64,000 nucleotides of DNA. Source: Amphirosellinia nigrospora. Taxonomy: Eukaryota; Ascomycota; Sordariomycetes; Xylariales; Xylariaceae. Under the pieces are notes generated by a model. The model had not been told where the DNA came from. It ran no database searches and saw nothing but the letters and a program-made list of their open reading frames with translations. Position numbers and translations under genes: made by a program. Of the stretch, positions 305 to 46,381 are shown in pieces (within the stretch, counting starts at the first letter, position 1; every line of letters begins with the position of its first letter). The stretch is from assembly GCA_004123355.1 (NCBI GenBank), contig SCHM01000004.1, positions 4,801,017 through 4,865,016 of the forward strand, read 5' to 3'.

Positions 305-608
305 ATATCTTGGATGTTAGTTAAGCGACAGACTTGGGGTAGGCTTCGAGGCGACCCAGTCAGGTCCTGTTCTCACCGCCTAACTCTTTGGAAAATATAG
401 GGAGCGGTGAGAAAGTCCCTGCATATTTTGCCGGGCAGAAAAATAGTTGCCCCACCACCCCGGTCGCATTGCTTAGCTCAAGCTTCGAGCCATGAATTAT
501 GTGCTGTGTGTATAAAAGCATTGATCTCCATTGGGTAGCATATTCCGATGACATGATATAAGTTCCCATTCTCTCCCCAAAAGTGATTAAACTAGAGAGC
601 TGCTCATT

Positions 609-33023: not shown

Positions 33024-33555
33024 GCTTAGGGGGTGGGCCCTGAATCTACCCCGGATTGCCTGAGAACTTAGACTCCTTAGAACTTACTTACCTAGTGTGC
33101 ATACGTCTTGACGGGACACTGGATATGTACTTAATTACCATGTTAGGTCGACTACCTGCACACTGAAGGAGATCTCCTCAAATTTTCTAGATTATATTGT
33201 CGACAGAAAATACTGTATTTCAAACAAAAACAGGTGAGCAAAACTGCACGAGAGTTTATCGGGGTTGTGTTATGAGTACCGGAATGAGGTGACTTACAAG
33301 CCACAATCAATTCCAAGCTCGCGCCACGAACCCGCCCACCCATTCCGCCACGTCAAGTCAACCCGGAGTCAGTGCTGCCGGTTTCGTTCTCTACTCTCAA
33401 ACGGTCAAATACATACATACCCTTCCTACAAGACAACACAAACTCATCAATGCGATTAAAAAACTGGTGATAGATAGGGTCGTCACTGGTGAAAATGGGT
33501 ATGTAACTATACGTCATCGACATCGCGTCATCCCGAAAGAGACCCGGCAGCTCGG
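33024..33555. other. spacer upstream of dapB
   Basis: 532 bases, with the UPF0145 3' end and the dapB promoter. No gene seen. Confidence 0.45.
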
Positions 33556-36451
33556 ATGCTAACAAAGGAGACAGCATCACCACGCCCTTCACGCGACTCC
33601 TTCTCCTCCGTATCGACGACGAGCCTAGTCTTCGAGCGACTCGGCGAAAGAGAAAAGGCCAGTGCTAGTTTCAACGAAGGCAAACTCTCCGATCTCGACC
33701 ACGATGACTCGTTCAATACCACTGTTGACGATGACGAGCGGGACGCCTTCTTAAACTCGGCCGCCTCGCGCAAGACACAGGGCATGGACACCAAGCTCAA
33801 GCGGATACTGCTGCTGGCATCTGGTATCTTCGTCGCCATCTGGGTCATCGGCCTGGCCACCTTCATCTCTTCCAAGTCCTACCAGCACTCGTCCCAAAAG
33901 GAACATGACCCGACCGCTACCGCCTCGCGCGGCTCTGGCAAGCGTATAACCCTGGATCAAGTCATGGCTGGTTACTGGGGGGCCACCAGCCACCAAATCA
34001 GCTGGATCGACGGCGCTAATGGTGAAGACGGACTTTTGTTAGAGCGAGGCGCTGCCGGCAAGGACTTCCTTGTCGTCGAAGACGTCCGGAGCAGGAGTAC
34101 CGACCGTGTTACAGCCGGTGGTGCTCGGGTCACGTCTTCTAAAACGCTAATGCAGCAGGCCTTATTCGATGTCGGGGGGCAGACCCTATCACCTGAGGAG
34201 CTCTGGCCGAGCCCTGATCTAAAGAAAGTACTCATTGCGACTGGCATCAAACACGTATGGAGACATTCCTTCACGGCAACATATTGGATATTCGATGTCG
34301 AAACCCAGACCGCCGAACCCTTGGACCCCAGGGACGCGAACCGCAGAGTGCAGTTGGCACAATGGAGTCCCCAGAGTGATGCCATCTCCTTCACGAGCTC
34401 AAACAATCTGTACATCCGACAACTGGAGAGCAAGAAAGTGGTGCAAGTTACCAAGGACGGTGGGCCGGAATACTTTTATGGGATTCCAGATTGGGTATAC
34501 GAAGAAGAAGTCTTTGGTGATAACAGTGCTACTTGGTGGTCTAACAGCGGGGATTACTTGGCCTTCCTCCGAACCAACGAAACCCTCGTGCCGGAATACC
34601 CCATTCAATTCTTCATTGACAGGCCGAGCGGAGAGGAGCCTCCCCCGGGCCTAGACACCTATCCAGAAGTCCAACAACTCAAGTATCCGAAGGCAGGGTC
34701 GCCCAATCCTTTCGTCGATCTTCTGTTCTACGACGTCGCCAAGGGCGATACGTTCGAGGTACAGATTAAAGGAGGTTTTGATCAAGATGATCTTCTCATC
34801 ACAGATATTACATGGGCGGGGGATAGAGTACTTATCAAGGAAACCAACCGTGTGAGTGACATCATGCGTGTCGTCCTAGTAGATGTCCCTGCACGGACAG
34901 GCAAGACTGTACGCACAGTTGACGTGGGTAAAATTGATGGGGGTTGGTTCGAGATATCTCATGACACCACCTATATTCCAGCCGATCCCAAGAACGGCAG
35001 GCCAGAAGATGGATATCTTGACACCGTTATACATGACAACGGGGATCACCTTGCGTATTTCAGCCCTCTCAATGCGAGCCAGCCTATCATGCTAACCTCG
35101 GGTAACTGGGAGGTGGTCGACGCACCATCAGCGGTCGATTTAAAGAACAACGTGGCATATTTTATTGCGACCAAGGAGTCCTCAATTCAGCGGCATATCT
35201 ACAGTGTCAAATTCGATGGCTCAGATCTTAAACCAGTCACTGATACAAGTAAAGAAGGTTACTATGGCGCCTCTTTCTCTCGCAAGGCAGGATATGCTCT
35301 CATCTCCTACAAAGGACCAAACGTGCCTACCCAAAGGGTTGTCAGCACTCCCAGCAACCCCGAATCATTTGAACATATTGTCGAGGAAAACAAAGACCTA
35401 GCGGACAAGGCAAAGCAATATGAACTTCCCCTTCTTCAATATGGGACTATTACTGTGGACGATGTTGAGCTGAATTACGTTGAAAGACGTCCGCCACATT
35501 TCAATCCCAACAAGAAATACCCTGTTTTGTTTCAACAATACTCTGGCCCAGGCTCACAGTCTGTCGATAAGAAATTTACGGTTAACTTCCAGTCCTATAT
35601 TGCAGCTGCGTTAGGATATATCGTGGTAACTGTCGACGGTCGAGGCACAGGCTTCATCGGACGGAAAGCGCGTGTCATAGTTCGCAAAAACCTGGGCAAG
35701 TGGGAGGCTCACGACCAAATCGCAGCGGCTAAGATTTGGGCTGCGAAGCCTTACACCGATGAGACGCGAATAGCGATCTGGGGCTGGTCGTATGGCGGAT
35801 ACCAGACTCTGAAAACACTCGAGCAAGACGCAGGGCAGACATTCCAATACGGAATGGCTGTTGCCCCTGTCACCGACTGGCGATTTTACGACAGCATTTA
35901 CACGGAGCGATATATGCTAACACCGCAGCAGAATGAAGATGGTTACGATGCGACGGCCATCAATAATGTATCTTCACTTGCAGGAAACGTACGGTTCCTC
36001 ATCATGCACGGTGTTGCTGATGACAACGTGCACATGCAAAACACACTTACCTTGCTAGATAAGCTGGACCTAGCGGGCGTTGAAAACTATGATCTACACA
36101 TGTTTCCCGATAGCAACCACGGCATATACTTTCATAATGCGAATCGCATTGTATATGACAGTAAGTACCCATCTCATCGTTTGAGAAACCAGCATCGATA
36201 AGCCAGCTCTTTTTCTATATAGCGCATGCTAACGCTCTGCAGAATTGAATAATTGGCTCATCAACGCCTTCAACGGTGAATGGTTGAAGATAGCAAATGC
36301 GAAGCCCGCACAGGCTGTTTCAAAGGAGAAAGTGAAGAGGAGTGGCGTCGAAGAGTTGAAGGCAGGGGTAGAGGAAATACGAAGAGCAGGTGTCAACACA
36401 GAAGGCAAGCATATATTCCCGTCTGCCAGTTCATCAGGAGCACATTTGTGA
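33556..36451 (+). CDS. dapB: dipeptidyl aminopeptidase B (vacuolar, S9B)
   Basis: A type II membrane serine peptidase that removes X-Pro or X-Ala dipeptides in the vacuole; homologue of yeast Dap2 and Ste13. Exons 33556..36160 and 36243..36451 give 937 residues. The cytosolic tail has the family [16 protein letters not shown] block. One membrane segment lies at about 84-105. A beta-propeller follows, with [12 protein letters not shown] around its active-site glutamates. The peptidase domain has G-W-S-Y-G-G with Ser745, V-A-D-D-N-V-H with Asp822 and S-N-H-G-I-Y with His855, so the triad is complete. The intron is standard (GTAAGT; GCTAAC; TGCAG). No frame breaks in 2.8 kb, unlike UTP20 and CUL3. 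Confidence 0.93.
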
Positions 36452-41416: not shown

Positions 41417-43942
41417 ATGTCTGCTTCGGAGTACGCTGGTATGGCCGGGACTTGGTCCATGGATTTAGCTAGCACGGCACCCGATGCCAGATATTCATCC
41501 ATTCTAGAAGCAACTGAAGAGTCCGTGTTTGACCCCGACCATCGCTCCCTCGCCGATAAGAATGACTACAAAGATGGCGGAAAATATCGAGGTAAGCACA
41601 TTTGCCCTTGGTTTCCCCGCCTTGGGTCCCCTTTCTATCGTATAGTTAGATGGCTAAAGACCTCCCACAGCTATTGTCAAGCTTCAGATGCAATATGAAC
41701 ATCCAAATTCAGCTGAACCCATATGGGCAATGGGCACCGGCTGGCTGGTTAGCCCAGAGTGAGCAATTATTACACCCATTTTCCAATGACCCTCCAAATA
41801 GCCACAACTGACACCTATTATTACAGCACGCTTGTTACCGCGGGCCATAACGTCTATAGTTGGGTAGGGGACGAGGAAAAGCTCGGCCGCGCCGTCCACA
41901 TCAGGTGCTATATCGGATACCACGGCAGAGATTCAATTGATTCGCCAATTGTTCAGCAACGTGTCGCCAAGACTGTTGTTGCCCCGGCAGAGTGGCTAGC
42001 TAGGAAGGGTAATCGCCATCGTGACGTTGCCTTTATCCAGGTGGATCGTCCATTCGAAGGCAATCTTCGACTCTTTTCTTACAAACCTACCCCGAAGTTT
42101 GGCGATGATATGATCGGTGTCGTCGGATACCCTTCTGATAAGTCACTGGTTGACAAGGATGGGCGAGAAGAGAGAGGCGCTCTGATGTATGAAATGTTCA
42201 ACGATATTCAGTATAACCTGGAAGACAAGAAGAACAACCCTCTCCAGATGCTAAAGTATCGCATCTCTACCTTCGACGGTGAGTACTAATCGTTCAGTAT
42301 ATCTCGCGGTCGTTTCTAAACATTCCTCAGGCCAATCCGGAGCCCCCGTTATCCGCAAGACTGGGAAACAAGCAGTAATTGCTACACATGTCTACGGAGG
42401 TGGCGACAAAAACCAAGCAAGCGTCATTGGAGCATACGGTAACGACTACGACTTGTTGATCAGCGTTCTCACCAAGAGATACCCAGTGATTGGTAATCAC
42501 ACGGGAATCGATCTCGTCGAGCCTTCATTATATACAGGCAAGCCAATCACCGTAGTCCAACCACCATCAGCAGTGCCAACCTCCGACGCGACTGGTTTTA
42601 TTGCAGTCGACAACCTACCCAACAGGGAACAAGCTGAAGGGTTTCTCGAGGTGTTCAGGAATGTTGGCCGTATTGTCAGCACTGTTGGTCAGCAGTCCTT
42701 ACCACTTGTCTCGCCCTTGCTTGGTCCCGTAGGGGGGCCGGTAGCTGCCATTGCTGGAGCAGCTCTCGGCACTCTGGCTAATGCCTGTGCCGAATTTGCA
42801 ATAGACAGATCGGTAGCACCACTCAATGACATCAAACAAGCGGCCGCAGGCACAATGGAGCGTGCCATTGTAGCGGAAGCATCACTTCAAGCTGTTTTCA
42901 AGTTGGAAGATAGTGCGGTCACCAATAATATCATCAACAACAGTTAGTATTTCCTAGTCAATTATTATTCGACCCACCGACAATACCCTATTCACAAGCA
43001 ATTTCTTGCTCTCAATGGTAAATCTAACTGAGTACTTTATAGTGAGAAAGCTTTACACAGACTTGGCACCCAACGTCAAATATATTGCACCGAAGCTTGC
43101 CCCTGGCCTGCTGAGCTCGGTCTCCAAAATGGATGCCAAGAAGAGCTTTTGGCAGCAAGAAGAAGAACTATCCCGCAGGCACTCTCCGGGGCCTTTGAAT
43201 GGAAACTGGGTGGAATCTCAATCTAGCTCAAACGATTTTATTAACAACATGATGCAGCCACCTCGGCCCCGAGACGGCGAGGAGTCATTCTTTGAGGGTT
43301 TTGGCCGCATATTGGAAGCCGGCTTCCGGGCCGGAAAACCTCTACTTCGTGAAGGAGCCAAAGAAGGCCTTAGGCTTCTCAATAATGCCGTTGCGGAGTC
43401 CAGCTTCAATGCAGAATCTTGTCTTGATGACAACGAAGCCCGAGCCGCCGAGCTTGTGGCAAACCGCGCCATCATGGGTGAGGCTGCACTGCAGGCTCTG
43501 ATGAGCCTCAACAACGCCGAGCTTGCTCAATTGACTCTGGTGAATGAAGATGGGGACGTGCACGTGGAAGGATTTTTTGACTTTGTGAAGGACGCGGCCC
43601 AGAAGATTGGCTCTGCCGTCAAGGATGCTGGTCCGCTTGTTCTCAATACAGTTGTGCCCGCCGTCCCAGAAGCACTGCCAAAGCCTTCTACTGACTCGGC
43701 TCACCTGAAGCCATTGCATGGCGGGTTCCAAACGACACTGCGGAAGAAGAAATCTATACTCAGTATGATCAACGACGGCACTTTGAAGGTAAGCGTACCC
43801 TCCCACTGGGCGGGCATGGCAATGAAGGATGCAAAGAGGTACCGTACCGGTGCTTCGTCCTGCTGACTCCAATAATGGCTTGTTAACTTCCTAACAACTT
43901 TAAATCCACTTTCTAACGCATTATTTGCAGGTTGCAGCGTAG
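41417..43942 (+). CDS. V8/trypsin-like serine protease fused to hydrophobic C-terminal repeats
   Basis: Six exons join in frame: 41417..41591, 41671..41758, 41827..42278, 42331..42942, 43043..43788 and 43931..43942, giving 694 residues. If the last intron is retained, the frame stops at 43866 instead. Residues 60-290 form a trypsin-fold (S1B/V8-type) protease: G-T-G-W-L-V, T-A-G-H (His95), R-D-V-A-F-I (Asp154) and G-Q-S-G-A-P-V (Ser241). No signal peptide is seen, so it is probably intracellular. The C-terminal half has a hydrophobic Gly/Pro/Ala stretch at about 358-395 and two later amphipathic segments starting E-S-F-F-E-G-F-G and E-G-F-F-D-F-V. It also has a duplicated R-A-I-(V/M)-x-E-A-(S/A)-L-Q-A element. 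I recall similar proteins in Sordariomycetes as uncharacterised. Substrate and role are unknown. Confidence 0.8.
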
Positions 43943-44837
43943 TCAAACCTTTGACATGATGTATTCGCCTCCGCGGTTGAGTAATTCCCAGGCAATCACA
44001 TCCTTCACAGTCATTACTCGTTATTAGACTTACTTCAACCACTGAACCAAAACCCAAGCGACGCTGAGCCCCTAGCTGCCCCTATCCCGATAATCAGTAT
44101 TATCCGGAAAGTCACTTAGGTGAATATATATGAGGCGATCCTAAGCATTTGAAATATGGCGATGAAATAGTTGTCAAGGTAGCGAAGGTGACAACTATTG
44201 TGAATGAATATCTCTACGGATTCTACACAGGTCCATAGGGATCACTCTGTGGGAAACCCCTTTTAGGATCTTTCAAAAAATGTTTACTTTAGCTACACAT
44301 ATAACAAATTTGAACTTCAAAAGAGTTCTGATCTATCTAGGTGGCTGTGTTAATAGCAACACGATTAGATGCATGAGTAAGATCCCGGGCAACGGGTTTT
44401 ATATAAGACTATCCTTGGGAGAAGAAAATAATAGCACAAACCAGGCGGCAAGAAATTACAGTCAAGTAACTGCGCTACTGAGTCCTGATAGCCTTCCAAT
44501 TAGTCATGACATTATAGGATGATGAAACTATTTTATTATCTATGAATTGAATGTCATTCATCGCTACTTAGTAAGAACCTGCAATGTTTTCCTTTGTCTA
44601 CACAAATATCAAAGGGTTTGTCTTCACATTGATGTATTCAACAAAACTTACATTTTATCGTCACGTGTATTAAATTAATATAAAAGCCCAAGATGTGTAT
44701 TGATGACTTTTACTACCGACTGGTCAAGTTCAAGAAGTCGACAACCACCTCAATACTACGTGCCGCCATCTTAAGAACATACAGAGCCAAATAAAAACTC
44801 CAATATATTCCCAAGGTCTCTACTCTTAGATTCAGAA
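43943..44837. other. intergenic, 0.9 kb
   Basis: AT-rich spacer, with the promoter of the amidoligase gene towards its right end. No gene supported. Confidence 0.4.
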
Positions 44838-46381
44838 ATGTCCGCAACAAGCACATTACTTAACGAGCGTCTAACTTTTGGTGTCGAAATTGAATTTCTC
44901 ATCGCTACACTTCCACGGAACGAAAAGGACCCTCACGACAACATCAATGGGATTCCTCCAGCTCTACGATACAGACCCGGTCTCGAGGGAGCTAACCTTA
45001 GTGCCTATACCCATCGCAGAGTCCAGGCAGTCCTGGACGAGCTTCTTGGTAGTCTCCCTTTACCATCATGGATTGGGGGTCTCACGAATACCACAGTATT
45101 GGATACTTTTCGTAATTGGATCATCGATAGCGACGAGTCTCTCCTCCCACCATCTGGCGACATGCCACTTGCCGACACGAATTATACCTTTGTGCCAATC
45201 GAAATAGCCAGTCCTGTTCAATACGCCTCTCCGAGGGGTTTTGAAATTATCGAGTTGGTCATCTCTGTCATTGTTAGTCGTTTTCGTTGCATTGTGAACC
45301 CCTCTTGTGGGGTTCACGTTCACATTGGTTTAGGTTCATCTCGAATCCCGCTCGAGCACATAAGACGTATTGCTAGTCTAAGCTACGCGGTCGAGCCCCT
45401 TCTTGACACTCTGCAAAACCCACACGTGGAGTTAACTGGAATTGCAGGCAGCTTCGATATTTTTCGAATCTTGTGCATCAAGATCCAATCCTTGACTCCA
45501 AAGTTCCTCACGGCGATCCAAACTCGTCGGAACCAACGGCATTGGTGTGTACCTCTAGGAGGAGAAGACGGCACGGTGAAGAAACACTAGCAGTGAGGGG
45601 TATGAATAGTGACCCGTCTTACGTCGCCGCATTACTAGCAACTAGAGAAGCAGGACATACGAGCCGTTCACTACACCTGGTGATTCGAGACACACAACGC
45701 TTCTATCAAGCGATATTTTCGATGTCATTGATTCTCGGATCTCGGCCGTAGAGCTTCCCTCATCATCAACAGAACCGCCTTCCCGGCCAGGCAACGCGGG
45801 ATCCCCCGACTAGGAATTCAGAAGTATACTCGAGCTAGCCTTACGAGAATGAGTTTGCTAAATGAGCGCTGGGGGGCCTCACTTGGGGAAGTGATCTAGA
45901 CTGCCGCATCGCTGCTAACCCCGGTTTTAGTATGTATGAAGCTCTGGAACGTATTTATCGTCAACCATCCAGCTGTAATATCGGCCATATGCTTTGCGGT
46001 GTTGGATTCCCACGGATCGCGATTAGTTTCCACCACTACCTGTGTGCTTATTTTGAGCCCCCTAAGACTAGTCCGCGAACAATAGAAGTCAGGATGGGCG
46101 AAGGCTCTCTTGACGGCCGTTGGGTTGCTACTTGGGCTAAAATCCTTACCGGTCTCTTTAGGTTCGCTATTCATTCCTCGCCGAGCCAGTTTATCGATCT
46201 CTTGGCGAACTGTGAAAGGGCAACTAAAGTCGACGGAGCCTACGACGTTGTGGACCTTCTCGACGACGTCGGTCTCTTCGCTGAGGCGGTGATTGTCGAG
46301 GAGAGATTGATGGCTCACAAGGACGAGTGGGATCTGAGATTCGTGAACCAGACGCCTAGACTTCTCTTGAATTCATGTTAA
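44838..46381 (+). CDS. putative amidoligase (ATP-grasp-like/GCS-like), frame-broken
   Basis: The N-terminal 250 residues are clean. F-G-V-E-I-E-F at 14-20, I-E-I-A-S-P-V at 121-127 and C-G-V-H-V-H-I-G at 157-164 are the metal/ATP-site motifs of the Amidoligase_2 family, which is related to glutamate-cysteine ligases and forms amide bonds. The C-terminal part resumes in another frame at about 45930: G-V-G-F-P-R, then T-I-E-V-R-M-G-E-G-S-L-D-G, corresponding to the family's conserved E-x-R...G-T block. Between 45560 and 45930 the frame changes more than once, and a short intron could also be present. Total about 500 residues. The substrate is unknown. In bacteria these enzymes modify peptides or cell-wall precursors; in fungi they are common but uncharacterised. 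The family call is firm; the middle is unresolved. Confidence 0.75.

Follow-up and report, generated by a model that had tools for sequence, protein, structure and literature searches.

Gene organisation

The DNA analysed (the window) is a stretch of 64,000 nucleotides of Amphirosellinia nigrospora, and forms part of contig C6 in a genome of 48.1 Mb assembled in 11 contigs. At positions 41417-43942 of the forward strand it contains a gene which in a six-exon model (Table 1) gives 2085 nt of coding sequence and a protein of 694 residues. The five predicted introns are of 52-142 nt each, and all begin with GT and end with AG. Intron 5 is the least certain of these; if it is left unspliced, the protein would have a different short C-terminus. 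The predicted protein consists of a protease without a visible signal peptide, followed by repeated amphipathic segments in the C-terminal region. This is the layout put forward in a preliminary description of the locus, and our analysis bears it out.

Upstream of the protease gene there is a long ORF for a DPP IV-type dipeptidyl peptidase (33493-36198, +), and the next ORF downstream (44775-45587, +) has a match to a putative amidoligase (Pfam PF12224, E=4.2e-13). The families that Pfam identifies elsewhere in the window (DPP IV, UTP20, cullin and CwfJ) are eukaryotic. Rfam at its gathering thresholds gave no match between 38000 and 48000.

Table 1. Exons of the predicted protease gene and the features that they encode.
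Feature	Position	Strand	Content	Basis
Exon 1	41417..41591	+	N-terminal region, residues 1-58; acidic pro-like segment, possible maturation site E35/S36	Gene model
Exon 2	41671..41758	+	Protease domain begins	Gene model; Pfam Trypsin_2, residues 80-251
Exon 3	41827..42278	+	Protease domain: His95, Asp154, Thr236 (=190)	Gene model, Pfam, alignment
Exon 4, protease part	42331..42942	+	Ser241, His258 (=213), Gly261 (=216), then linker	
Exon 4, tail part	42331..42942	+	First repeat; amphipathic window 336-353 (holds E341/GFLEVF); Gly/Pro/Ala stretch at about 361-392	
Exon 5	43043..43788	+	First repeat ends, linker, second repeat; amphipathic windows 523, 542 and 620 (E523/SFFEGF, E618/GFFDFV)	
Exon 6	43931..43942	+	Final codons and stop if intron 5 is spliced out; if not, stop at 43866	

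The protease domain

The match to Pfam Trypsin_2 is well above the cut-off (E=6.8e-10; 40.3 bits, cut-off 27.6), while that to Trypsin is barely above it (E=0.00025). The catalytic residues His95, Asp154 and Ser241, described before as a complete triad, are found at those places in the six-exon model. A profile match over the cut-off, together with His, Asp and Ser in the expected order, marks the domain as a trypsin-like serine protease. No signal peptide had been seen earlier and none is visible here: judged from hydropathy alone, using 19-residue windows starting at residues 1-60, the highest mean Kyte-Doolittle value is only 0.15. Residues 1-56 carry a net charge of -6. The bond between Glu35 and Ser36 is, by analogy with Glu-V8 and BIGEP (PMC5508998, in part), a possible maturation point, although it is not conserved in the two related sequences, which are paralogues from the same genome.

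Searches of other libraries add little to this assignment. PADLOC matches are confined to the protease region (RT-Protease_XI and LmuA), and were taken as generic similarity to trypsin rather than as a specific identity. PHROGs and NCBIfam gave no match, and a tblastn search with the protease against plasmids found six records, all bacterial, at 24-28% identity. Matches to triosephosphate isomerase in the PDB, with E values from about 0.05 upward, were judged to be chance. Pfam finds no NB-ARC or NACHT domain in the same protein, which is thus not of the fungal NLR effector type; Table 1 of PMC4986451 gives 12 N-terminal classes for fungal NLRs, including Peptidase S8, and none of those in that table is trypsin-like.

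A probable glutamyl-endopeptidase-type S1 pocket

When the single sequence was searched against the PDB, the top match was a glutamyl endopeptidase, 4jcn, at a weak E=0.039. The alignment places STFDGQSGAPV over STVGGNSGSPV and ATHVYGG over GIH-YGG, and it is by way of this weak alignment that Thr236 is numbered as position 190, His258 as 213 and Gly261 as 216. A profile was also made, in which the window protease is joined by three rows drawn from two proteases that are its relatives in this genome. Against solved structures it finds the Bacillus glutamyl endopeptidase BIGEP (1p3c) over most of the profile length, with E=1.4e-6; enteropeptidase (3w94) outranks it in the same search, with E=1.1e-6.

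The bacterial glutamyl endopeptidases Glu-V8, BIGEP (1p3c) and Esp (4jcn), which we take to be S1B enzymes, resemble the window protein in being chymotrypsin-fold serine proteases with the triad, Thr/Ser190, His213, Gly216 and an N-terminal pro-like region. They differ in that they are made with a signal peptide and a propeptide, as described in the available part of PMC5508998, whereas the window protein is fungal, has introns, shows no signal peptide and carries a tail of about 370 residues. Since it shows no signal peptide such as the secreted bacterial precursors have, we refer to it as GEPase-like, and not as a typical glutamyl endopeptidase. The same source describes Ser or Thr at 190 together with His at 213 in the S1 pocket as the mark of glutamyl endopeptidases, and Thr236 and His258 supply this pair, on an alignment with E=0.039. 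It adds that Gln-specific proteases have His213 too, and that 3C enzymes typically have Gly216. The pair is therefore necessary but not sufficient, and, judging from these residues, Glu specificity is likely only. The apparently Glu-type residues Thr236, His258 and Gly261, and the Glu found before three aromatic starts in the tail (see below), go beyond what was noted in the preliminary description.

Proteases of this kind also occur in viruses. According to the available part of PMC5508998, viral serine 3C-like proteases, and likewise sobemovirus Pro-VPg, can have Glu specificity and process the chain to which they belong, an activity that is only predicted here, and Pfam gives a sub-threshold match to Peptidase_C3 (14.9 bits, cut-off 22). 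The gene could then be the relic of a viral polyprotein, with the protease joined to membrane or VPg-like segments, that was taken up by the fungus. This seems to us very improbable. The gene has five predicted introns, two of them at positions common to a paralogue on contig C5, and the solved structure found over most of the profile length is that of a bacterial glutamyl endopeptidase. In the 20 of 54 window ORFs that were scanned, there are no viral genes beside it and no viral polymerase family. Scans of the viral_contigs and genome_contigs collections upheld no relative, the pattern matches having failed in tblastn; these collections are without fungal genomes and hence silent on fungal homologues.

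The C-terminal tail

In the tail, residues 326-694, a module occurs twice, as diverged copies. They are 27% identical, and their alignment score of 61 is reached by none of 300 shuffles. Searched alone against Pfam, the C-terminal half matches no family above the cut-off; the three matches below it are to a frog antimicrobial peptide, DUF4781 and Collagen_mid, with E values of 0.098-0.25. One of seven segments tried, residues 619-646, resembles the frog antimicrobial peptide family PF08023 (E=0.032), with 15.2 bits where the gathering cut-off for membership is 22. The match begins exactly after Glu618. The likeness to frog antimicrobial peptide precursors, below the cut-off and in one of seven segments, would be at most convergent. 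Residues 619-650 alone gave no match in the PDB.

The usual hydropathy threshold for a transmembrane segment is about 1.6. The Gly/Pro/Ala hydrophobic stretch to which attention had been drawn earlier is real, but it peaks at 1.54 (in the window that starts at residue 362) and makes no clear membrane span, and a transmembrane reading of it was dropped.

AlphaFold was run without an alignment on the 125 tail residues of exon 4 and on the 248 residues of exon 5. Both models are mostly helix and both are unusable, with a mean pLDDT of 50.0 and 40.7 respectively; at such values they show no packed fold and speak neither for nor against a soluble one. The best sequence matches of the tail region in the PDB are designed helical proteins, at E=0.024 and 0.27, which is near chance. 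Helix in both models, helical proteins as best matches and the lack of a clear membrane span are what would be expected if the tail were a soluble helical-repeat domain that binds other proteins, as a sensor or substrate receptor, its amphipathicity being no more than ordinary helix packing. We consider this rather unlikely, since models of such low confidence show no packed fold and amphipathic windows are some eight times denser in the tail than in ten other ORFs of the window.

Related loci in the same genome

The family is present in at least three places in the genome: the window gene on contig C6, contig C5 at about 7164899-7169094, and contig C1 at about 11845676-11847264. The long copy on C5 (L010 4366-6595, +) has the same layout as the window gene, namely a protease, 44% identical, followed by pieces of the tail. 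Its divergently oriented neighbour (L010 2400-3470, -) is a second V8-like protease gene. By eye, the window gene and the long C5 copy have two intron positions in common, one before IVKL and the other inside the GxSG motif. The C1 locus (L011 3177-4765) has the tail module but no protease; after the module come about 140 residues which match nothing else in the genome at E<=10. The second tail copy of the window protein resembles a piece of this locus, with a score of 114 that none of 300 shuffles reach. Among module pieces across the three loci, several further pairs also beat their shuffles and others do not. Further upstream of the C1 module the DNA appears by eye to be strongly AT-rich, as it would be after repeat-induced point mutation. 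Nothing was found in the open-access literature on a protease with a tail of this architecture.

There are at least three frame changes in the C-terminal half of the C5 copy and at least one in the C1 gene. Such changes may mean that the copies are broken, that introns went unseen or that the assembly is in error. Read as decay, they would make the window gene one survivor of a decaying, lineage-specific family, intact but losing or lacking its function. We think this improbable: in the window copy the triad is complete, the S1 residues are present and the splice sites are plausible throughout its 2.5 kb, and the long C5 protease, at 44% identity, has also kept, by eye, the triad and the pocket residues.

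Amphipathic segments and the glutamates that precede them

Residues 326-694 contain four non-overlapping 18-residue windows with a hydrophobic moment of at least 0.6, starting at 336, 523, 542 and 620. Shuffled tails contain 0.164 on average, and none of 500 shuffles reach four. There are none in residues 57-300, and five in the 3750 residues of the ten other ORFs.

The two segments beginning with paired aromatic residues, known from the preliminary description, were found again as SFFEGF at 524 and GFFDFV at 619, and there is a third of the same kind, GFLEVF at 342. All three come directly after a Glu (E341/GFLEVF, E523/SFFEGF and E618/GFFDFV), so that three of the four amphipathic windows have a Glu-aromatic start, which lies inside or beside the computed window and not in every case exactly at its edge. 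The window at 542 has no such start. By eye, two of the three corresponding segments of the C5 copy are preceded by Glu.

The motif E-[GS]-aromatic-hydrophobic occurs three times in residues 326-694 and once in the 3750 residues of the ten other ORFs, and none of 2000 shuffles reach three. For a looser motif, E-[GS]-hydrophobic-hydrophobic, the observed count of three is equalled or exceeded in 14 of 2000 shuffles; this motif is found twice in the protease-less C1 locus, as EEGIFDD and EEGLFDA. Since the first motif was defined post hoc, after the sequence had been read, and the repeat copies are homologous, these statistics overstate independence. Glu is common at the start of helices. The C-terminal half contains 26 Glu in total, and a Glu-specific enzyme would therefore have many other sites in it.

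The net charge of the tail is -2 in residues 326-455, -7 in 516-612 and +2 in 613-694, which is unlike the strongly cationic lytic peptides. This, and the amphipathic windows themselves, would suit a tail that is neither released nor toxic, and which acts as a membrane-docking or oligomerising module, through which an intracellular protease with a signalling role is brought to a membrane or into a complex. The C1 module, having no protease and a different C-terminal stretch, is what would be expected of a portable targeting module. Such a function does not predict that Glu should stand right before three aromatic starts. We regard it as possible, while having our doubts.

Comparison with systems of similar logic

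The fungal gasdermin HET-Q1 and its protease HET-Q2 resemble the window protein in logic only, as a serine protease combined with a membrane-active part, the latter being predicted here. As far as the available part of PMC12881547 describes them, they are two separate genes, with a subtilisin-like protease and a gasdermin as effector. Pfam scans of the gene and of 20 of 54 window ORFs gave no gasdermin match, though fungal gasdermins may escape Pfam. The comparison with protease-gated cell-death proteins, drawn in the preliminary description, is partly supported as a matter of logic and not as membership of a family. Trypsin-like peptidase domains also occur in bacterial systems of intracellular conflict and death (PMC7159879, in part), a likeness to which the PADLOC matches belong. 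In contrast to these, the window protein has no STAND, vWA-MoxR or reverse transcriptase partner domain according to Pfam.

Proposed function

We hypothesise, with a probability of roughly one in three, that the product of the gene is a cytosolic, Glu-specific zymogen with a built-in membrane-active substrate, which would be released on activation and harm the cell's own membranes. The protein would be a GEPase-like zymogen of the chymotrypsin fold, with its substrate in the same chain. Because position 216 is Gly, as it is in Glu-V8 and BIGEP, we infer that another protease would have to remove the N-terminal pro-region before the S1 pocket is complete, and this removal would be the gate. The activated enzyme would then cut after Glu341, Glu523 and Glu618 and set amphipathic segments free, and these would insert into the cell's own membranes and damage them, as a response to non-self or stress. 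That the tail might be released had been suggested earlier, and the suggestion is made somewhat stronger by the Glu-type S1 pocket and by the Glu residues right before the three aromatic starts. Against our hypothesis, the paralogues do not share the candidate maturation site, and the C1 module occurs without a protease. In addition, His213 and Gly216 also occur in Gln-specific 3C proteases (PMC5508998, in part), and 3w94 scores as well as 1p3c.

A stronger form of the proposal is a single-chain, protease-gated membrane effector, in which each amphipathic repeat peptide is preceded by a cleavage site and one activation frees several of them. We think this form unlikely; if true, it would make the protein a cell-death executioner different in kind from gasdermin and HeLo proteins.

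Should the tail be neither released nor membrane-attacking, the gene still documents a fungal glutamyl-endopeptidase-like protease with no visible signal peptide. The repeat module fused to it is matched by no library searched here and is present elsewhere in the genome with no protease. If the tail does come free and attack membranes, the gene would be a one-gene fungal counterpart of protease-plus-gasdermin, with a new effector module.
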